Below are positions 4,187-22,717 of a DNA stretch of 24,941 nucleotides, one piece after another. The notes under the pieces are model-generated. The model saw only the letters and a program-made list of their open reading frames with translations. It was not told the origin of the DNA and ran no database searches. Source of the stretch: a virus; the IMG/VR virus record IMGVR_UViG_3300003886_000041, positions 1 to 24,941 of that record; one strand, given 5' to 3'. The position numbers and the translations under genes are program-made. Every line of letters begins with the position of its first letter. The stretch's first letter is position 1.

Positions 4187-4906
4187 TTATCCTGCAAACT
4201 GCGGAACGCCGAAGGCACCTACCGTGTTGCGACCAGCCGGCTTGTAAACCAGCTTTAATTCGTCCGTGCCGTCTGCCGCTGCTGATGGATTGAACGTACC
4301 ACGAACATCACCAGTAACTGCGGTTGCCGGGGAAGTTGTGTCGGCAACTGTAATTGCACCAGCTCCTACGCCGATAACCTTTGCGTTTCCGCCTTCGATG
4401 GCAGAGTCAACGTCGTCAGCATCGTCTACTCGATATGATAGTCCAACCTCGTCCTCAGTGCCTGCGCTGGCGTTGCCAGTAAGGGCTGCTGAGATTGCTA
4501 TTGACTCAACCTGCTTGAAAGACTTCGATCCGGATACCGGAGTTGTTCCGTTGAATACAAGTCTCTCAACTACAGGTGCGTCATACGCATCTCGACCAGT
4601 GATCGTGGCTGTTTGCGCTGTATCGCCAGCGTTTGTTGAAAGTATTTGCACGTTTCTAGCGACATCAGCAACGCCTATTCCGGCAACTACAAGAGCGCCG
4701 TTAAGTGTAAGGTTTCCTGCTGCGGCTACTGCCTGAGCAGCGGCATATCCGTTTGCGTCAAGCGCATCAGGCTGACCAAGGTTGTCATCCAGTGTCAGGC
4801 GGATTGGGAGGCCTCTGCCAGAGCTGTTAGCGCCGGCCTGATATGCATCTCCAGAGAAAAGGTTCTCAGCGTGCGAAATTGTGTGTGAGTTGTTTCTGTT
4901 GCCCAT
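4187..4906 (-). CDS. Beta-rich virion protein (decoration-like, possible paralogue)
   Basis: This 239-aa protein is rich in A, G, T, V and D. Its N-terminus (residues 1-35) is polar, followed by ANGYAAAQAVAAAGNLTLNG and a beta domain containing TAQTATITGRDAYDAPVVER. The middle segment parallels part of the 228-aa neighbour. AAGGA lies 8 nt before the ATG. It is the first gene after the major capsid gene, separated from it by about 180 bp that contain hairpins, so its expression may be lowered relative to the capsid gene. It is probably displayed on the head. No enzymatic motif is seen. Confidence 0.5.
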   Translation of the reverse strand: MGNRNNSHTISHAENLFSGDAYQAGANSSGRGLPIRLTLDDNLGQPDALDANGYAAAQAVAAAGNLTLNGALVVAGIGVADVARNVQILSTNAGDTAQTATITGRDAYDAPVVERLVFNGTTPVSGSKSFKQVESIAISAALTGNASAGTEDEVGLSYRVDDADDVDSAIEGGNAKVIGVGAGAITVADTTSPATAVTGDVRGTFNPSAAADGTDELKLVYKPAGRNTVGAFGVPQFAG

Positions 4907-4979
4907 TGTTTCAGTCCTTAAGGACGGTCAGCCACCACCTGACCAGAATTGTAATGCCGAAATTGGTGAGTCTTTCAGC

Positions 4980-5005
4980 AAAATAAGACCGGGGCCTAGA
5001 CCCCG
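4980..5005 (-). terminator. Probable intrinsic terminator after the major capsid gene
   Basis: On the minus strand a GC hairpin CGGGG-TCTAGG-CCCCG is followed by GGTCTTATTTT, a stem then a U-rich tract. It lies about 90 bp past the capsid stop and before the next structural gene. It is expected to end part of the transcripts and so keep capsid protein abundant relative to downstream genes. The U tract is interrupted, so termination is probably incomplete. Confidence 0.5.
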
Positions 5006-8469: not shown

Positions 8470-8835
8470 TTACGCGTCTACCCAAGAGTAGTAATTGTCG
8501 GGATCATCAATGATCGCAAGTATCTCTGTGTCATTCAGGAGCTTCAGGTTTTGCGTGCTTCCTGATCTGCGTATATCCACACCACCATATGGCGCATACA
8601 TAACTTGGTCACCAACTTGAGGTCGAACCTTCCAAGCAGACATATCAATGCCGCCCTTTGTTCTTGCACAAAATGCCGCTTCTCCAACTGCTACCAGCTC
8701 TCCGATATAGTTCAAGTGGTCCTGAGCATCAACAGTTGCGGAAAGATCAATGCCTGACTCACTCTCTGTCTTTCCCTTCTTTGGCTTTACGATGACCTTC
8801 CATCCTACTGGAATCGGGATTGAGTTATTCGTCAT
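8470..8835 (-). CDS. GroES-like co-chaperonin (Cpn10 family)
   Basis: This 121-aa protein has the Cpn10 fold signature. It opens with PVGWKVIVKPKKGK (residues about 9-22), followed by a flexible ESESGIDLSATVDAQ segment that fits the GroEL-binding mobile loop. Then come GELVAVGEA, a VGDQVMYAPYGGVDI strand pair (about 74-88) and the closing LLNDTEILAIIDD. GroES is about 97 aa; here the extra length lies in the roof region and the C-terminus. Phage co-chaperonins such as T4 gp31 replace GroES so that host GroEL can fold the capsid protein. Being next to scaffold and capsid genes fits that use. GGAG lies 7 nt before ATG. Confidence 0.75.
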   Translation of the reverse strand: MTNNSIPIPVGWKVIVKPKKGKTESESGIDLSATVDAQDHLNYIGELVAVGEAAFCARTKGGIDMSAWKVRPQVGDQVMYAPYGGVDIRRSGSTQNLKLLNDTEILAIIDDPDNYYSWVDA

Positions 8836-12071: not shown

Positions 12072-13721
12072 CTATCCATATATACCTCTTTCCCTTCTTG
12101 GCTTGAACAAATTCAGCTCTCCCTCATCTTCGTCAAACATCTCAATTGAGCCCATTCTTCGCAAAAACGCCAGCAACATAACCACCGTGTCCACGTAATC
12201 GTCGTAGCCTCCTATTGGGAACTTTGCGCACTCCTCGACCACATCTATGCCGTCATTGTGGCCGGGGACGTAGAACACACATCCCTGCTCAAGAATCGCC
12301 GAAACAAGGTGGGCTCGCATAATCTTGTCCTTGCCCTTTGGGTCGACGGCCTTGACTGGCACACCTGATCTACGTAGCTCCTGTATGAGCGAATGACCCG
12401 AAGCTTTTTTCTCAATGAGGACCCAGTCAGGGTGCCAATCGTCGTAAGCTGTTTGTGCCTCTCTCCGTAGATCAGGGAATGGAATTTTGTCTCGCCAAGC
12501 GTCAAGAAGGATTGCACAGCGCTTTTCCGTTGCTCGTATGATAGCTCCAGTAGCTGGGTGAATTCTTTCTGGAGTGTATGGGAAGACTCCCCACGTCGTT
12601 CGTGCGCTGTAGTCATTCTCTTCTTCCTCCTCGAATGCTGTATCATAAATCTGAAGTATGGCCTCACAGTCCGGCATTGGTCTTCTTTTGTGTGATTCCG
12701 GATGCCACTCAGGATACTCCCAAGGCTGCCACCAAGATCGCTTCAAGATAAGCCCGTCATCCGCCGCCGGGTCTTGTTGGTACTGAGAGTTATAATCTCG
12801 AAGCGTCATGCCTATCGGGGGCTTAAGCTCTATGGTCGCTCTCTGACCAAGTCTTCCGGGACACAAAAGCTCGTCCTTCTCGGTGCGCGGGTCTTCGAAT
12901 ATGGGCTCGGGCTCTGGTGCTCTCTTGTCTTCCTCAAGGGATTTCTTGTAATCAGACACTTGCTTGGGCAGCCAGATGGTGCACCTTGACGCAGGCCTAA
13001 ACTCATTCGGCATCACAACGTGAACCCACCGACCATCCTCCTCGACGTTAACTTTGCCCTCTTTTTTGAGTACGTGACCGATAACATCTGCGTCATGCAC
13101 TCGCTGTCCGACGTGCACGATTCTTCCGGTATTCTGGTTGTTTAGTCGAGACCTCATCGCGTTGTCGTACCAGTCGATGATATTCTCTCGCTTGACGTCT
13201 GAGTAAACCTCGCGGGCGTTATGTGAGTCATCAAGAAGTATTATGTCACCTCCCTCACCGGTAGTTCGTCCGCTTGACGTGATCGCTATTCTATGACCAC
13301 CTGATGTATTTGAGTATCTGGACTTCTGGTTCTCGTCAGTTCTTAGAGAGAACGTATCACCCCATCTGTCCTTGAACCACGGGGAGTCCATAAGGCGGCG
13401 AGACTTTAGAGCGTCTCGGGTGGATAGGTTGAGGTCATAGGATGATGTAAGGAATTGGGTTTCTGGCCTCTCAACCCACTCCCATACGGGCCAAGCTACG
13501 GAGCATGTCAATGACTTTGTCATGCGCGGTGGCATTGACACGATCAGTCTAGTGATCTCGCCAGTGCTCACATAGGTGAGAAACTCGCACAGCGCCTCCA
13601 AGTGCCATGTTTCGTGGAAGACTGCCGGGTCCATGTAGGCCCAAGCGTCCTTGAAGAATCGAAAGAATTCGCGCCGCGCAAGCTCGCCCTGAATCTGGGT
13701 CAAGTTGCCGGGGTTGGACAT
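12072..13721 (-). CDS. terL: Terminase large subunit
   Basis: This 549-aa DNA-packaging motor protein has an N-terminal ATPase with Walker A PPRMTKS (residues 64-70) and Walker B DIILLDDSH (159-167). A coupling segment follows at RIVHVGQRVHDADVIGHVL. The C-terminal nuclease half shows LQIYDTAFEEEEENDYSART, DWVLIEKKASGHSLIQ and GGYDDYVDTVVMLLAFLRR with acidic residues suited to metal binding. The usual glycine before the Walker lysine is Thr here. GAGG is 6 nt before the ATG. It cuts and translocates DNA through the portal. No clear small subunit gene is visible upstream. Confidence 0.9.
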   Translation of the reverse strand: MSNPGNLTQIQGELARREFFRFFKDAWAYMDPAVFHETWHLEALCEFLTYVSTGEITRLIVSMPPRMTKSLTCSVAWPVWEWVERPETQFLTSSYDLNLSTRDALKSRRLMDSPWFKDRWGDTFSLRTDENQKSRYSNTSGGHRIAITSSGRTTGEGGDIILLDDSHNAREVYSDVKRENIIDWYDNAMRSRLNNQNTGRIVHVGQRVHDADVIGHVLKKEGKVNVEEDGRWVHVVMPNEFRPASRCTIWLPKQVSDYKKSLEEDKRAPEPEPIFEDPRTEKDELLCPGRLGQRATIELKPPIGMTLRDYNSQYQQDPAADDGLILKRSWWQPWEYPEWHPESHKRRPMPDCEAILQIYDTAFEEEEENDYSARTTWGVFPYTPERIHPATGAIIRATEKRCAILLDAWRDKIPFPDLRREAQTAYDDWHPDWVLIEKKASGHSLIQELRRSGVPVKAVDPKGKDKIMRAHLVSAILEQGCVFYVPGHNDGIDVVEECAKFPIGGYDDYVDTVVMLLAFLRRMGSIEMFDEDEGELNLFKPRRERGIYG

Positions 13722-14210: not shown

Positions 14211-14461
14211 TTCTTTTTTCCCTTGTTTGCATCATCAACAGCGCCATCAACACCACGATAGTCACGCTTGTTGTAGCTTGGCTTGGATGGTTTCTTCGTC
14301 GTTGGCTTGCTAGGGGCCCTCTTCTTCTTAGCAGGCTTTTTGTAGTCTGGGTCTTTGTCGCCCGGCTTTGGTCGTTTTCTCGTTGTTCCGCCCGGCTTAG
14401 GGGTTGACAACGGAGGACCATAGTGGTTCGATTTCTCCGACTGTTTTGATCTTGATGGCAT
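14207..14461 (-). CDS. Lys/Pro-rich histone-H1-like basic protein
   Basis: This 84-aa protein is mostly K, P, S, R and T (KPGGTTRKRPKPGDKDPD, KKPAKKKRAPSKPTTKKPSK), like the tails of histone H1 and of bacterial H1-like proteins. It ends DANKGKKK. It overlaps the Ser-rich gene by ATGA and begins inside the 44-aa membrane gene. A DNA- or RNA-binding role is plausible. The start ATG at 14461 has only a weak ribosome site (GCGGA). Confidence 0.5.
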   Translation of the reverse strand: MPSRSKQSEKSNHYGPPLSTPKPGGTTRKRPKPGDKDPDYKKPAKKKRAPSKPTTKKPSKPSYNKRDYRGVDGAVDDANKGKKK

Positions 14462-14531
14462 ACCAGTATCCGCCGACCCCCAAGATACACAGGGAGGTCA
14501 AAATTATCATTATGATCTCATTGATACCCAT
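14397..14531 (-). CDS. 44-aa single-pass membrane peptide
   Basis: The ATG at 14531 opens a 44-aa frame with one hydrophobic segment (EIIMIILTSLCILGVGGYWY, residues 5-24), then a basic KIK and a short polar tail. It overlaps the stop of the upstream gene by 14 bp and the start of the basic-protein gene by 65 bp. No strong ribosome site is seen, so expression would depend on coupling. Possible roles are a holin-like or inner-membrane accessory peptide. It could be spurious, although a clean transmembrane segment is unlikely by chance. Confidence 0.4.
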   Translation of the reverse strand: MGINEIIMIILTSLCILGVGGYWYAIKIKTVGEIEPLWSSVVNP

Positions 14532-14682
14532 GAACCGTATCTATAGATCGTATTACACGGAAAAGCCTAATGGTTCTCGGCCCAGCAGGAGTAGGAACCT
14601 CCCAATGCTTTTTGGCACAGGATCGCCTCATCTCAGAAACTGACTGAGACAGTGATTCTCTTTTTGTCTGCTGCTTTTCCAT
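14518..14682 (-). CDS. Small basic protein, unknown
   Basis: The ATG at 14682 gives 54 aa; a GTG at 14703 would add seven residues. The protein is polar and basic (MEKQQTKRESLSQSVSEMRR, then PAGPRTIRLFRVIRS). No family is recognised. It lies in the chain of small genes leading to terL and overlaps the 44-aa membrane peptide. I list it because it fills the gap between two supported genes on the same strand. Confidence 0.35.
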   Translation of the reverse strand: MEKQQTKRESLSQSVSEMRRSCAKKHWEVPTPAGPRTIRLFRVIRSIDTVHGYQ

Positions 14683-14752
14683 GGTTGATAGACTATAAGG
14701 CACTAGCCGGCAGGAATCTACCGACCGGGTGCCGCCATGGCCCGGAAAAAAA

Positions 14753-15103
14753 CTACCCGGTTATTGAGGGGATTTCTGGTCTCTCGACCCTGTCAAGCCT
14801 TGCACAAATCACCATCAAGGTTTCGTCAATTCTTTTGTTGACGTCGACAAGCTCTCGAATGTCTGACTTTATTTTTTGTAACGCGTTACGGTTAGCATCA
14901 AGCCTTCCGCTCAGGTCGTCATCGTGAGCGCTTAGCTTTGCTATCGCTGCGCCAATCACTTCGTCCATTGACCTTAGGGAGCCCTCAAGCTTAGCGCCAG
15001 TCTCTATGACGCTTGTTATCTTTGAGTTAGAGCACCGAATTTTCTTGCTCTGCATCGCGTACATATCAATAATGCCGAGCTTTCTCAACACCCAAAGTCG
15101 CAT
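14753..15103 (-). CDS. Coiled-coil protein downstream of the SPFH module
   Basis: The ATG at 15103 is preferred over longer readings that run into the upstream gene, and gives 116 aa. Residues about 30-110 are heptad-like (DEVIGAAIAKLSAHDDDLSG, NRNALQKIKSDIRELVDVNK), predicting a long coiled coil, ahead of a short Pro-containing C-terminus. No membrane segment is seen. It follows the 115-aa coiled-coil gene after 10 bp and may assemble with it or with the SPFH protein. The function is unknown. Confidence 0.5.
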   Translation of the reverse strand: MRLWVLRKLGIIDMYAMQSKKIRCSNSKITSVIETGAKLEGSLRSMDEVIGAAIAKLSAHDDDLSGRLDANRNALQKIKSDIRELVDVNKRIDETLMVICARLDRVERPEIPSITG

Positions 15104-15113
15104 CTTGTTTCTT

Positions 15114-15461
15114 CTACTCTTGCACGAGCGGCAGGTCACCGAACACATCCTCAAGCAATTGAAGCTGCGCGTCTATAGCCGCCAAAGCTGGCACGCCAAG
15201 AAGCTTTCTGTTTGTGGACATTAGGCTGCCCTTGGCTGTGATTGCCTTGTTCCTAATCGATAGGTACCCGCTTAGGGCCTCTTCGAAGTCAGCAATTCGC
15301 TCCTCCTCGGCCTTGTCAGACTCGGCTTGGATGGCCTCCTTCTGGGCCGCAATCTCTTTTCCTGCGCTTCCCTTGATGGACTCAAGTTCGTCACCTAAGG
15401 CTCTAAAGTCAGCCAGTGACTGCTCCAGCTCCTCGGTTAGTTGTGATTTCGATTTACTCAT
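15114..15461 (-). CDS. Coiled-coil protein coupled to the SPFH gene
   Basis: This 115-aa protein is mostly charged helix (QLTEELEQSLADFRALGDEL, AQKEAIQAESDKAEEERIAD), indicating a coiled coil over residues about 5-65, with a less charged end (LMSTNRKLLGVPALAAIDAQ). Its ATG overlaps the SPFH stop (ATGA). SPFH proteins usually carry their own coiled coil after the SPFH domain. This phage SPFH protein lacks one, so this separate coiled-coil protein could supply it. That link is inference. Confidence 0.55.
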   Translation of the reverse strand: MSKSKSQLTEELEQSLADFRALGDELESIKGSAGKEIAAQKEAIQAESDKAEEERIADFEEALSGYLSIRNKAITAKGSLMSTNRKLLGVPALAAIDAQLQLLEDVFGDLPLVQE

Positions 15462-16015
15462 TCTTCTTCTCCGTGTCCAAACACAAACCCATCTCCGTCG
15501 TGTGAGTACACCTCAGTTCTTGTGAAGTCCGACACGTAAGCATCGAGAACCTTCACCCCATAATCTGACAATAGCGACTTCGCCGCTCTGGTTACCTCGT
15601 TTCTCATCTGGTTCGAATCTGCCATGTCCTCGCAAATTTTCTCAAACGTGCGTGACATAACTGGCTGAACCGTAAGCTTTTGAGCAACCTCAGTGATCGT
15701 GTCTTCAAAGTCTGTGGTTTCCACCAAAGCCTTAACGACGTCATCAACGATGAATACTACCACAGTATTTAGCTGTACTGTTGCGTCATCTTTGGTTGTG
15801 AGGCGCTGACCAAAAGTAATGGTTTGCCTCTTTGATTCTATGGTGTAAACCTTCGTTGTGACAGGCCACCACCAGTAAATTTGTCCGGGAGTGAGCTTGA
15901 TAACCTGTGATCCGGGTCTGAATTTAACGCCGGCCTCTGTCGGCTCCAGAAGGTCCCACCTAGGGAATAGATCACCAAACCACTGAGCAAGGTCATTTAT
16001 CCAATCAAACATCAT
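15458..16015 (-). CDS. SPFH (stomatin/prohibitin/HflK-C-type) domain protein
   Basis: This 185-aa protein matches the SPFH pattern throughout: an N-terminal amphipathic segment rich in W and F (residues 1-20) instead of a full membrane span; then EAGVKFRPGSQVIKLTPGQI, the PGxxxxxP-type turn, KRQTITFGQRLTTKDDATVQ (central TTKD motif), VVVFIVDDVVKALV, EVAQKLTVQPVMSRTFEKI and YGVKVLDAYVSDFTRTEVY. In cells SPFH proteins form membrane-bound rings or microdomains that control proteases such as FtsH. It lacks the usual C-terminal coiled coil. Its ATG overlaps the lipoprotein stop (ATGA), so the two are co-translated. Confidence 0.8.
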   Translation of the reverse strand: MMFDWINDLAQWFGDLFPRWDLLEPTEAGVKFRPGSQVIKLTPGQIYWWWPVTTKVYTIESKRQTITFGQRLTTKDDATVQLNTVVVFIVDDVVKALVETTDFEDTITEVAQKLTVQPVMSRTFEKICEDMADSNQMRNEVTRAAKSLLSDYGVKVLDAYVSDFTRTEVYSHDGDGFVFGHGEEE

Positions 16016-16362
16016 TCAACCTCATCGTGGTAGTCCTTGCCGTAGATGCAATGCAGAATCTCGTGGCCTATGGTCAGGGTGTGTTCGTCATCAACCTCGT
16101 TGGGTCGAACGACAAACATATCCATATGACACAGGTCCCTGTCGCCGTAGCGCTCTATCATGCTGAACCCCTGCAGCCTTTCTGGGTCCTGACCGAAGTG
16201 CTCCTCTACGTGTGCACTCATTTCGGAAGTAGTGTCAAACCAGTATATGGTAACCAGAACATTGCTGATCTCACCCTTCGATTTGTCAACTGGCTCAGCG
16301 CTAACGTAGCCATCACTACAGCCAATCAAAAAAAACACTACCAATATCAATATCTTATTCAG
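16012..16362 (-). CDS. Lipoprotein with HExxH metalloprotease-like motif
   Basis: Translation from CTG at 16362 gives a 116-aa protein with a textbook lipoprotein signal: NK, a hydrophobic run ILILVVFFLIG, then lipobox LIGC with Cys15. The only upstream ATG starts lie far inside the previous gene and would bury the signal. GGAG lies 6 nt before the CTG, which overlaps the upstream TGA. The C-terminal part has DLCHMDMFVV and HTLTIGHEILHCIYGKDYH, where HEILH (100-104) would bind zinc and H112, or a nearby acidic residue, could be a third ligand. It is expected on the periplasmic face of a membrane. Protease activity is inferred. Confidence 0.65.
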   Translation of the reverse strand: MNKILILVVFFLIGCSDGYVSAEPVDKSKGEISNVLVTIYWFDTTSEMSAHVEEHFGQDPERLQGFSMIERYGDRDLCHMDMFVVRPNEVDDEHTLTIGHEILHCIYGKDYHDEVE

Positions 16363-17765: not shown

Positions 17766-17919
17766 GAATTGCCTCCATTGTTTCTAGTAGTCCGTCAAAA
17801 TCTTCGATTGGTATCTCAACCTGACCGGGGCTTGCGTTGTGTCGAATTCCCTTGAGAAGCCCGATATACCAGTTTAGGTAATCGCGCAGAGGAATTTCTG
17901 GAACCTCTACCTTGCTCAC
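17728..17919 (-). CDS. Small protein, unknown
   Basis: This 63-aa acidic protein starts at a GTG that overlaps the TGA of the two-span membrane peptide. It contains VPEIPLRDYLNWYIGLLKGI and a helical acidic end (FDGLLETMEAIRDEKFTEDT). It overlaps the phosphoesterase start by 38 bp. No family is recognised. Tight coupling to both neighbours suggests they are made together. Confidence 0.5.
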   Translation of the reverse strand: MSKVEVPEIPLRDYLNWYIGLLKGIRHNASPGQVEIPIEDFDGLLETMEAIRDEKFTEDTVPK

Positions 17920-18083
17920 ACCAACCCCCAGAACAGCAGCCCTGCGATGACCATGAGCATTGACTGGGTTCTCTCGTCATCATTCATCTCGGTTCGGCCA
18001 TTGTTGTCGTCTGAGTTGCGCTTAAACCCGCTGTATACGAGAAAGAGGCCCATGAGAGCGAACAAAATCTGAAGCACTATCAT
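17916..18083 (-). CDS. 55-aa two-span membrane peptide, holin candidate
   Basis: The ATG at 18083 has AGGGA 6 nt upstream and opens 55 codons. Two hydrophobic segments (VLQILFALMGLFLVYSGF, about 3-20, and MLMVIAGLLFWGLV, 42-55) are joined by a very polar loop KRNSDDNNGRTEMNDDERTQ. Two short spans with a charged loop are the layout of small holins. It overlaps the upstream gene by 4 bp and the next by 3 bp. No endolysin is visible in the window, so the lysis role is only a possibility. Confidence 0.6.
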   Translation of the reverse strand: MIVLQILFALMGLFLVYSGFKRNSDDNNGRTEMNDDERTQSMLMVIAGLLFWGLV

Positions 18084-18385
18084 TGGCATTCCCTGTCCAT
18101 TGGGAACTGCCTGCAGAGGCGGTCTATGGCGTCCTGAAGATCAAGATCAAGCTGACGCCTTCGATTCGCGTCGGAGCCGTTCAGCTTCCAAATCTCATTT
18201 CTGATCTCCCTGATCTCTGTCTTTAGCGCGGTGTACGCGTACGAGTCAAGGCTCTGCGTGATAAGTACGTGCTCAGGCTTGTGCACGATCTGCATCTCGT
18301 ACCGAGTGTCGGCTATCTGAACACTTCCCCAGACTCCTCCAATCAGCACAAACAGCCCGGTTATTGTTGCGATGATAATTTTCAT
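18080..18385 (-). CDS. Membrane-anchored coiled-coil protein (spanin- or holin-partner-like)
   Basis: The ATG at 18385 has AAAGG 7 nt upstream and gives 101 aa. An N-terminal span (KIIIATITGLFVLIGGVWGS) is followed by a soluble helical part (TALKTEIREIRNEIWKLN, then RRRQLDLDLQDAIDRLCRQF). This N-in membrane anchor plus coiled coil resembles inner-membrane spanins and other small anchored phage proteins. It sits directly before the two-span peptide, which supports a joint membrane role. Not proven. Confidence 0.55.
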   Translation of the reverse strand: MKIIIATITGLFVLIGGVWGSVQIADTRYEMQIVHKPEHVLITQSLDSYAYTALKTEIREIRNEIWKLNGSDANRRRQLDLDLQDAIDRLCRQFPMDRECQ

Positions 18386-18407
18386 GCTTGTGCCTTTCCT
18401 TCGGTTG

Positions 18408-18869
18408 TCATTTGGAGTAAGGACCTCTTGGCCCTCTGCCCCCGCATTCAATGGCTTTGCTTCGCCTCATAGGAACAAGTTTTCTGGATGCTGCGCTCAC
18501 GGCAAACATGTCCCCACTATCGCGATCAAGCTCTAGGTGTCCGATGATTTCATACTCCGGATACATCCTAGGCTGCCCCTCAGCGCGCCTCTTTGTTCCT
18601 GTTTTTATGATGATACCATGCCTTTCTCCAAAGGTAACGGCATCGCCAAGCTTACACCTCTGGGGAGGGAATCCAATAATTGGAGCGACAGCAGCCTCAA
18701 TCTCTCTGCCTATGAGGGTCTTTCCCTCGACTCCGGCGGCTGGGAATGCCATCAGGCATTTTTTTGGCCATGGAAGCTCGTGGTCATCGAACCCGTTGCG
18801 AGCAACATCCCTCATGTTGATAAACCACTTGGAATGCTTCTGTGTCTCAAACGGACTCATCATCTCCAT
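18408..18869 (-). CDS. Hypothetical protein
   Basis: This 153-aa protein is a mixed alpha/beta soluble protein. Segments such as PFETQKHSKWFINMRDVARN, VGFPP-like AAVAPIIGFPPQRCKLGDAV and GIIIKTGTKRRAEGQPRMYP give no recognised family. The C-terminus is basic (CGGRGPRGPYSK). A start at 18860 is possible, but GGGG before 18869 fits. It overlaps the next upstream gene by 10 bp. Unknown function. Confidence 0.5.
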   Translation of the reverse strand: MEMMSPFETQKHSKWFINMRDVARNGFDDHELPWPKKCLMAFPAAGVEGKTLIGREIEAAVAPIIGFPPQRCKLGDAVTFGERHGIIIKTGTKRRAEGQPRMYPEYEIIGHLELDRDSGDMFAVSAASRKLVPMRRSKAIECGGRGPRGPYSK

Positions 18870-19698: not shown

Positions 19699-19958
19699 TC
19701 CTCAACCTCGGTTTCAACTGCGGCGTCATCCTCAATGACCGGGCTGACCTTAGCCCACGGGAAGTTCGACTTGACGTTTGCCCGGAAGTACGACTCGATG
19801 TTGTCCGCCGTGAAAAGCTCCTCGGCGACGTCGTTCGGCACATCCGAGTACTCGTACACATTGCTTCCGCTCTGTGTTACACGAAGCACTTCCGTGTCCG
19901 AATCGTAGTTTAGGGCTATGACGTTCTTTCCGCCCACTTGCTTTTCTGCTACTGGCAT
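19695..19958 (-). CDS. KTSC-like protein (tandem paralogue)
   Basis: This 87-aa protein has the same core as its neighbour: ALNYDSDTEVLRVTQSG, VYEYSDVPNDVAEELFTADN and SYFRANVKSNFPWAKV, followed by an acidic tail. The likeness is in layout and key aromatic positions, not in long identity, so the duplication would be old. Its ATG overlaps the stop of the HExxH gene by one base and its stop overlaps the next KTSC gene. Function unknown. Confidence 0.6.
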   Translation of the reverse strand: MPVAEKQVGGKNVIALNYDSDTEVLRVTQSGSNVYEYSDVPNDVAEELFTADNIESYFRANVKSNFPWAKVSPVIEDDAAVETEVEE

Positions 19959-20374
19959 TACCTTCTCCTGATGGCCTTCAAGGCCTCTGGTTTAGTTACT
20001 ATCCCACCGTACATGGCAGACGAAAGCCTGCCGGCGATGGTGTCCAAATGTCTTGCCCTCACGTTCCTGTCTCTGTTGAAGCGACAGAAAACCTTGTGCT
20101 CTACCCTGTGGGCCTCAAGCTCCATCTTGTACCTGAAAAGTACGTTGGTCAGATACTCCTCCCACCACGCCTCTACCCCGCCTCGCTTATCCTCACGGAA
20201 CTTATCCTGCTGTTCGAAGTGAACCTCCTCATGGGCAATGAGTTCAGGCGGCAGTGAGTTTCCCCAAGGGTAGTAGATTGTGTGATCGTATGCAAATATT
20301 GCGCCATCCGGAACCGGAAGCGCTTCCCTGATGCGGTCAATGTTTGGCGGAAATCCCTTCTTGATCTTAGCCAT
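19958..20374 (-). CDS. Putative HExxH metallopeptidase
   Basis: The ATG at 20374 gives 138 aa. The motif HEEVH (residues 48-52, within PPELIAHEEVHFEQQ) would bind zinc, and ELEAHR (85-90) follows about 35 residues on, where E87 could be the third ligand as in gluzincin-type proteases. WWEEYL between them fits small phage peptidases of this type. The C-terminus is helical and basic. It has no signal peptide, so it should be cytoplasmic. Its target is unknown. Confidence 0.6.
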   Translation of the reverse strand: MAKIKKGFPPNIDRIREALPVPDGAIFAYDHTIYYPWGNSLPPELIAHEEVHFEQQDKFREDKRGGVEAWWEEYLTNVLFRYKMELEAHRVEHKVFCRFNRDRNVRARHLDTIAGRLSSAMYGGIVTKPEALKAIRRR

Positions 20375-20717
20375 CAAAGTAGCCCTCGTCCCTAAGCTCG
20401 CAGATGGCACTCTCGTACGCATCATCAAGCTTCTGTAGATCGCGTATAATGCCCTTTATAGTTTCGTGCTGTCCAACCATGTGCCTATGCTGCTTAGAAG
20501 CACAAAAATCAATAGATACAGATTCACTGCAGTCCCTCATGGAGAAGTACGCAACAATCTCTCCGCGCGCTTTAATCTCACCGGAGCCATTAGCTATTTT
20601 TGGCGTCTTGTTCAGGTCCAGAGAGACATTGATGGTTGAATCGTTACCGTAATGGGCACTCTTTGGCCGAAGGAACCTTCGAATGCTCAGTTTTTTTACA
20701 CACTTAGAACGGACCAT
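20367..20717 (-). CDS. Hypothetical protein
   Basis: The ATG at 20717 has AAAGG 6 nt upstream and gives 116 aa. The N-terminus is basic (VRSKCVKKLSIRRFLRPKS), the middle is beta-like (STINVSLDLNKTPKIANGSG, EIVAYFSMRD), and the C-terminus is a helix (IKGIIRDLQKLDDAYESAIC). Cys/His residues are scattered without a clear metal motif. It overlaps its neighbours by 8-14 bp. Unknown. Confidence 0.5.
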   Translation of the reverse strand: MVRSKCVKKLSIRRFLRPKSAHYGNDSTINVSLDLNKTPKIANGSGEIKARGEIVAYFSMRDCSESVSIDFCASKQHRHMVGQHETIKGIIRDLQKLDDAYESAICELRDEGYFDG

Positions 20718-22222: not shown

Positions 22223-22717
22223 CTACAGGGTGGATAAGATGTCGTCAACACGTCTCGCCGCCAGTCTGGAGGGCGAAGCGAGACCTCTGTGCTTAGGCTT
22301 TTCAGGCGTCCCGGAGGAGGCCGTGCACCTCTCCCCCTTACTGACCCTGCAGTCATCAACGTGTTGCCACACATCGACATAAGGTCTCATGGTCCAGTGT
22401 CTGCTTGGCCTCAGTCCTCCAGCGACCATCATCAATTCAGTGATACCGCCGCCTATCGCCATTGGTGCGCTCATGAGCCTGACCGCCATTGCCCTGCGCC
22501 TATCCAGCTCATCAAGGTAATTCATGCGATGCTTCATGGATGGCACATCGATCAGTACCGTGTACCTCTCTGACTCCCAAGCCATGTTTAGTATGTTGTA
22601 GTTTAAGCTATTGGTGTTGTGGTTAGGGCCTGTCCTTATCAGCCCGAAGGGAGCCGCGAGGACCGTGGCCAATCCTAGGCCAGCCCCTGCGATCACATCC
22701 CTGCGCGACAGAGTCAT
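22223..22717 (-). CDS. Protein with twin-arginine (Tat) signal peptide
   Basis: This 164-aa protein begins MTLSRRDVIAGAGLGLATVL. The twin arginines (R5, R6) in SRRDVI and the mildly hydrophobic run up to APFG fit a Tat export signal, with possible cleavage near LAAP. The rest is soluble, with RRRAMAVRLMSAPMAIGGGI and a basic Pro/Arg C-terminus; no cofactor motif is visible. ATGA overlap with the upstream gene and GAGG nearby support the start. If exported, it would be folded in the cytoplasm first. Function unknown. Confidence 0.6.
   Translation of the reverse strand: MTLSRRDVIAGAGLGLATVLAAPFGLIRTGPNHNTNSLNYNILNMAWESERYTVLIDVPSMKHRMNYLDELDRRRAMAVRLMSAPMAIGGGITELMMVAGGLRPSRHWTMRPYVDVWQHVDDCRVSKGERCTASSGTPEKPKHRGLASPSRLAARRVDDILSTL

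Follow-up and report, generated by a model that had tools for sequence, protein, structure and literature searches.

Across cellular life, SPFH proteins pair with membrane proteases. In Pyrococcus (PH1511-PH1510) and in E. coli (QmcA-YbbJ), the SPFH gene is co-transcribed with the gene of a membrane partner, the long form of which carries a protease domain (PMC2636767, PMC13086221). In such operons, the stomatin partner is cleaved by the long NfeD form, a serine protease (PMC2636767, PMC13086221). SPFH proteins of the stomatin/QmcA type make up the group paired with NfeD/STOPP, and those of the HflK/C type are paired with FtsH (PMC2636767). SPFH genes have already been annotated in phages as well, namely ORF42 of Alteromonas phage V22 and genes of the T4-like phages 44RR, Aeh1 and RB43 and of the Vi01-like phage PhiSH19 (PMC7289586, PMC1524935, PMC3220722), so that a phage-encoded SPFH protein as such is not new.

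Here, we analyzed a 24.9-kb fragment of an uncultured virus (IMG/VR record IMGVR_UViG_3300003886_000041, positions 1 to 24,941; hereafter the window), in which the gene of a small zincin-like lipoprotein overlaps that of a short SPFH protein. The arrangement resembles the stomatin-STOPP and SPFH-NfeD systems in its operon-type combination of an SPFH gene with a membrane partner and in the stomatin-like sequence of the SPFH protein. However, it is carried by a phage, its partner is a tiny, predicted exported zincin-like (or trypsin-like) protein rather than one of the NfeD/ClpP type, and its SPFH protein has neither a C-terminal coiled coil nor a full transmembrane segment. With HflK-HflC and FtsH it shares the theme of an SPFH protein together with an HExxH protease, but FtsH is a cytosolic-side AAA+ metalloprotease, whereas the phage HExxH protein comprises about 100 aa, is predicted to be exported and has no ATPase; the phage SPFH sequence is also far from HflK/C. 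The literature searched contains no paper on the SPFH-zincin pair or on the zincin family. The pairing, which a first-pass annotation of this DNA had regarded as lying outside standard annotation, appears to be new, as do the zincin family and the exchange of protease type described below.

Cassette layout and genomic context

The terminase, portal and major head protein of the window place it among marine tailed phages; among cultured phages, its terminase and portal are closest to those of the Roseobacter phages CRP-901/902 (~41% identity). A Band_7 protein is absent from CRP-901/902, HTVC023P and DSL-LC04, the nearest cultured relatives by these markers. All cassette genes are encoded on the minus strand, just upstream of the gene for the terminase large subunit (12072-13721, minus strand; phrog_38, 3.4e-72). 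The lipoprotein gene (16012-16362) begins with a TTG codon and encodes 116 aa with the lipobox LIGC and a GHEILHC...YH motif. Its end forms an ATGA stop/start overlap (16012-16015) with the SPFH gene (15458-16015, 185 aa), and a second ATGA (15458-15461) connects the latter to the gene of a charged, coil-like protein of 115 aa (15114-15461). The first-pass annotation had described a lipoprotein with HEILH, an SPFH protein lacking a coiled coil of its own and three genes joined by ATGA overlaps; lipoprotein and overlaps are present as described, and the SPFH assignment is borne out by the profile and structure comparisons below.

Homologues of the 115-aa protein directly follow the SPFH gene in two related viral contigs (L127, 1.3e-13; L209, 1.4e-5), and the protein itself shows a weak match to Phage_Mu_Gam (0.002). 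Overlapping its gene is an open reading frame for a second charged, coil-like protein of up to 133 aa (14753-15154, minus strand, start codon uncertain), which has a weak homologue in L209 (0.0078) and similar-looking counterparts in L127 and L145; for both proteins, the label "coiled coil" describes the character of the sequence only. Further downstream, a small conserved cassette protein (14518-14703, minus strand) has homologues in the same order in L145 (6e-7) and L127 (2e-6). It is followed by a 44-aa protein with a single transmembrane segment by hydropathy (14397-14531, minus strand; phrog_10763 membrane protein, 0.0023), a possible holin or anchor. Single-transmembrane proteins are kept between the SPFH cassette and the terminase gene in L127 (1736-2002), L145 (6010-6171) and L209 (1114-1449, borderline).

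Several other minus-strand genes of the window were recorded. A GroES-like co-chaperonin (8470-8835; phrog_3188, 1.8e-8) adjoins the portal and head genes and is likewise annotated in HTVC023P and DSL-LC04. The window also encodes another HExxH-type protein (19958-20428, motif IAHEEVHFEQQ), which is unrelated to the lipoprotein; a look-alike of it lies near the SPFH-zincin pair of contig L208 (L220:11824-12246). The protein encoded at 22223-22717 starts with MTLSRRDVIAGAG, a twin-arginine-like export leader, which is unusual in a phage gene.

A short SPFH protein of the stomatin type

Membership of the 185-aa protein in the SPFH (Band 7) superfamily is genuine, as shown by a match to Pfam Band_7 (PF01145) at an E-value of 4.7e-16 and 59.8 bits (cut-off 23.6). 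A structural model built from 12 relatives (pLDDT 77.6) adopts a predicted stomatin fold, with human and mouse stomatin as the top PDB matches (Foldseek 4e-9; Z 16 over 108-114 residues at 1.5-2.5 A). At the subfamily level, stomatin (2e-15) and QmcA (4e-11) score far better than HflK (1e-6), and the NCBIfam equivalogs for hflK (21.9 bits, cut-off 159.4) and hflC (16 bits, cut-off 134.4) both remain well below their cut-offs. The suggestion in the first-pass annotation that HflKC/FtsH might be the target of the module is not supported by this result.

The protein is short and lacks the C-terminal coiled coil that follows the domain in most SPFH proteins: the SPFH domain ends at about residue 170, and a low-confidence acidic tail leads to the end at residue 185. 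The same early end after the domain is seen in all 12 aligned members, and an acidic tail in most of them. At the N-terminus, they open with a short amphipathic stretch rich in tryptophan, the hydropathy of which stays under that usual for transmembrane segments; an N-terminal transmembrane helix of the HflK/HflC type, which would place the SPFH domain in the periplasm, was not found, the best 19-residue hydropathy being 0.02 in the window protein and at most 1.43 among the 12 aligned members.

Direct searches for relatives, by tblastn against phages at E-values of up to 10 and by single-sequence scans of viral contigs, returned nothing. The view of the protein as an orphan was nevertheless rejected, since a scan with the pattern PGxYWxWP recovered close relatives; together with two alignment scans, it extended the subfamily to 23 other viral contigs. 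Two pattern-limited scans with the subfamily alignments found no relative among 84,980 genomes of bacteria and archaea. Among annotated phage proteins, the stomatin-like PHROG 200 (labeled "lipoprotein") and V22 ORF42 likewise carry an SPFH domain, but PHROG 200 matches the window protein weakly (0.0045), and ORF42 differs in its 297 aa, its lipoprotein-like N-terminus and its own long C-terminal helix, with no exported protease gene adjacent to it.

A family of small zincin-like lipoproteins

The lipoprotein carries a signal peptide with a lipobox ending in cysteine (LNKILILVVFFLIGC), and a lipobox pattern is found in 31/37 aligned family members. Its putative metal site, GHEILHCIYG..YH, covers residues 99-112 (16027-16068, minus strand), and G99, H100, E101, H104, G108 and H112 are invariant in 37/37 members. 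H100, E101 and H104 are thereby joined by an equally invariant H112, as expected for the third ligand of HExxH zinc peptidases. Based on these columns, we describe the family as tiny, predicted exported, three-histidine zincin-like proteins (GHExxH...G..YH) and putative proteases. Relatives, mostly lipoproteins, were identified in phage C48C1, in two Alteromonas phages and in 64 further IMG/VR viral contigs, the latter from a pattern-limited scan of a collection of 2.9 million contigs and including one of the Alteromonas phages again.

No named Pfam family matches the lipoprotein, and a sequence profile search in the PDB gave nothing meaningful. In its model (pLDDT 84.5), beta-alpha-beta-beta-alpha elements form the core, and the motif lies on the last of the helices (predicted helix 93-107). 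Foldseek returned no PDB match with an E-value below 0.14, and the only structural matches with Z above 5 were weak, namely YbeY (AQ_1354, 5.9) and collagenase (5.3), both of them metal proteins with the motif on a similar helix. Altogether, the family appears to be undescribed.

Phage lysis lipoproteins (o-spanin, u-spanin) share the small size and lipid anchor, and zincin relatives occur beside holin or lysozyme genes. In contrast to spanins, the predicted alpha/beta fold of the zincin is globular, its sequence carries the signature of a zinc site, and no spanin-type partner was identified. With a globular model and a zinc signature at hand, we set a spanin identity of the lipoprotein aside.

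Recurrence of the gene pair

Adjacent zincin and SPFH genes recur in four other viral contigs. In L127, L145 and L162, the order is that of the window, zincin then SPFH, and in L208 the two are adjacent and overlapping in reversed order. Since the window, L127 and L145 share synteny, they count as one arrangement and not as independent cases. L208 carries its pair in another context, beside RtcB and away from the packaging genes, and its reversed order speaks most strongly for selection that holds the two genes together. In L200, both genes are present about 16 kb apart; in L197, the SPFH gene is present and no zincin was detected within 74.7 kb. Within the closer clade with readable flanks (window, L127, L145, L162, L197, L200 and L208), the zincin accompanies the SPFH gene in 6/7 cases and is adjacent in 5/7; contigs L199 and L209 end on the side where a zincin would lie. 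Adjacency in four other contigs, as against a zincin recovered by the pattern-limited scan in only 64 of 2.9 million, confirms that the lipoprotein-SPFH combination seen by the first-pass annotation recurs more often than by chance. The two outcomes that the first-pass annotation had named as refuting it, a lack of any significant SPFH match and a pair kept together in no related phage, did not occur.

Conversely, a Band_7 search of all 64 zincin contigs and three phages yielded one independent phage, Alteromonas V22 (counted twice there, as phage record and IMG/VR copy), in which the two genes are not adjacent. Neither gene needs the other, since most zincins occur without SPFH and the SPFH protein of L197 without a zincin. 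Besides that, RtcB-like RNA ligase genes lie near phage SPFH genes in two phages (L220:6973-8247, L218:3-689), and in Pseudomonas aeruginosa, the rtc locus likewise contains a cellular SPFH gene, PaFlo8 (PMC13086221).

Other partners of the SPFH gene and the surroundings of the zincin

In two contigs of a related lineage with a common terminase type (L098, L210), the short SPFH gene is directly followed by the gene of a membrane-anchored trypsin-like protease. Both proteases match Trypsin_2 above the cut-off (1.1e-7 and 8.5e-13, respectively) and show a hydrophobic leader and TAxHC and GSSGG motifs, which adds a second case to the protease-like partner proposed in the first-pass annotation. 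In L206, a phospholipase-A2-like gene (4579-4995) lies between the short SPFH gene and a Mu-F head gene, with a match to PF09056 (4e-4) below the cut-off. In the distant members L205, L211, L215 and L217, the SPFH gene is located between a DUF4055 portal gene and a Mu-F head gene, without a protease. No neighbouring gene matches an NfeD/OB-fold or ClpP-type family in Pfam. The recurrent pair, its swapped order and the unrelated trypsin-like neighbour suggest that phages have their own arrangement of scaffold plus membrane protease.

The first-pass annotation had also proposed that the complex might protect lysis proteins or resist superinfection; the neighbourhoods of the zincin family lean to the envelope and lysis side. 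For example, a GTA-type holin gene lies directly upstream of the zincin gene in L018 (2.5e-15), and a phage lysozyme gene takes this position in L056, L058 and L060 (1.5e-9 for L056). In a C48C1-like group of 13-14 members, a holin-like gene is found two or three genes upstream (best 0.0034, below the curated cut-off), and the neighbours also include a nuclease gene. Several other zincin genes lie beside tail-fibre genes. Within the window, no endolysin or holin was recognized near the pair. Two minus-strand genes encode candidate i-spanin/holin-like proteins that match no family, one with a transmembrane segment plus charged helix (18080-18451) and the other 57 aa long, with two hydrophobic stretches (17916-18089). 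A literature search joining spanin, lysis cassette, lipoprotein and metalloprotease returned no paper.

Possible roles of the pair

The explanation that we tentatively favor, while giving it less than an even chance, is a late-operon membrane module of the phage, in which an SPFH scaffold and an exported protease serve the envelope step of lysis. The short stomatin-type SPFH protein would sit monotopically on the cytoplasmic membrane via its short N-terminal amphipathic helix and would assemble there, with the separately encoded coil proteins perhaps supplying the missing wall. The protease from the overlapping gene, exported and anchored to membrane or lipid, may act together with it; some phages would use a minimal zincin in this position, and another lineage a trypsin-like enzyme. 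Late in infection, the exported protease might cut envelope proteins, e.g. tethers between outer membrane and peptidoglycan, while the SPFH scaffold would place it or restrain the membrane side. The module may thus be likened to the cellular stomatin-NfeD/STOPP protease operons. As the predicted locations of the SPFH protein and the protease are the cytoplasmic face and the exterior of the membrane, respectively, direct contact between them would need a membrane-spanning link.

The holin and lysozyme neighbours of the zincin family lead us to favor a late envelope or lysis role over superinfection exclusion and over interference with FtsH. Known exclusion factors of phages include small exported lipoproteins, as in the T5 Llp type. 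For an exclusion or envelope-remodelling unit, the protease would clip a surface receptor or an incoming tail protein, and the SPFH protein would stabilize the modified membrane. The zincin relative located between tail and tail-fibre genes in two Alteromonas phages is in line with such a unit, as is the SPFH gene of the Vi01-like phage PhiSH19, which adjoins an annotated superinfection-exclusion gene (PMC3220722). However, no known exclusion family was matched, and the late, packaging-side position together with the holin and lysozyme neighbours fits lysis at least as well, so that we consider this role unlikely.

A phage SPFH protein with the fold of the host subunits could also co-assemble with or mimic the SPFH rings of host HflKC/FtsH or QmcA and thereby shift membrane proteolysis. 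Phage lambda targets this system, with CIII inhibiting FtsH (PMC1838920). We regard such interference as improbable: the sequence is stomatin/QmcA-like and not HflK/C-like (for hflK, 21.9 bits vs 159), and both the conserved zincin and its trypsin-like alternative would be left unexplained. A similarly low probability applies to an SPFH ring or scaffold near portal and terminase that acts at the membrane in virion assembly or packaging, with the protease genes as independent late passengers. The location just upstream of the terminase in the window group and that between portal and Mu-F head gene in the four distant members would agree with this role, but the L208 pair, off the packaging genes, keeps its zincin in swapped order, and it is hard to see what a predicted exported protease would contribute to head assembly. 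Finally, two unrelated accessory genes might have met in a hot spot upstream of the terminase, for which the solitary SPFH gene of L197, the many zincins without SPFH and the single synteny of window, L127 and L145 would speak, but we give this little credence in view of the recurrence in L162 and L208 with stop/start overlaps in both orders, the co-presence in L200 and the second protease type beside the same SPFH protein.

Implications of a proposed late membrane protease module

Returning to the late lysis module, a broader and more speculative proposal, which we hold with less assurance, is that an independent phage lineage of minimal SPFH scaffolds, with a split coiled-coil wall and interchangeable exported proteases, forms a phage-specific system of membrane proteolysis, plausibly one for protease-based outer-envelope lysis that replaces or assists spanins. 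In cellular SPFH pairs, the control of the protease by the scaffold is unsettled, and the phage pair would be easy to reconstitute. With an SPFH core of about 160 residues without a wall and a predicted exported protease of about 100 residues, it would be the smallest such pair. The zincin family, spread over 64 further viral contigs and lacking a Pfam name, provides a new target for annotation. Should the zincin act in lysis, phages without recognizable spanins could carry out the outer-envelope step by means of a protease.
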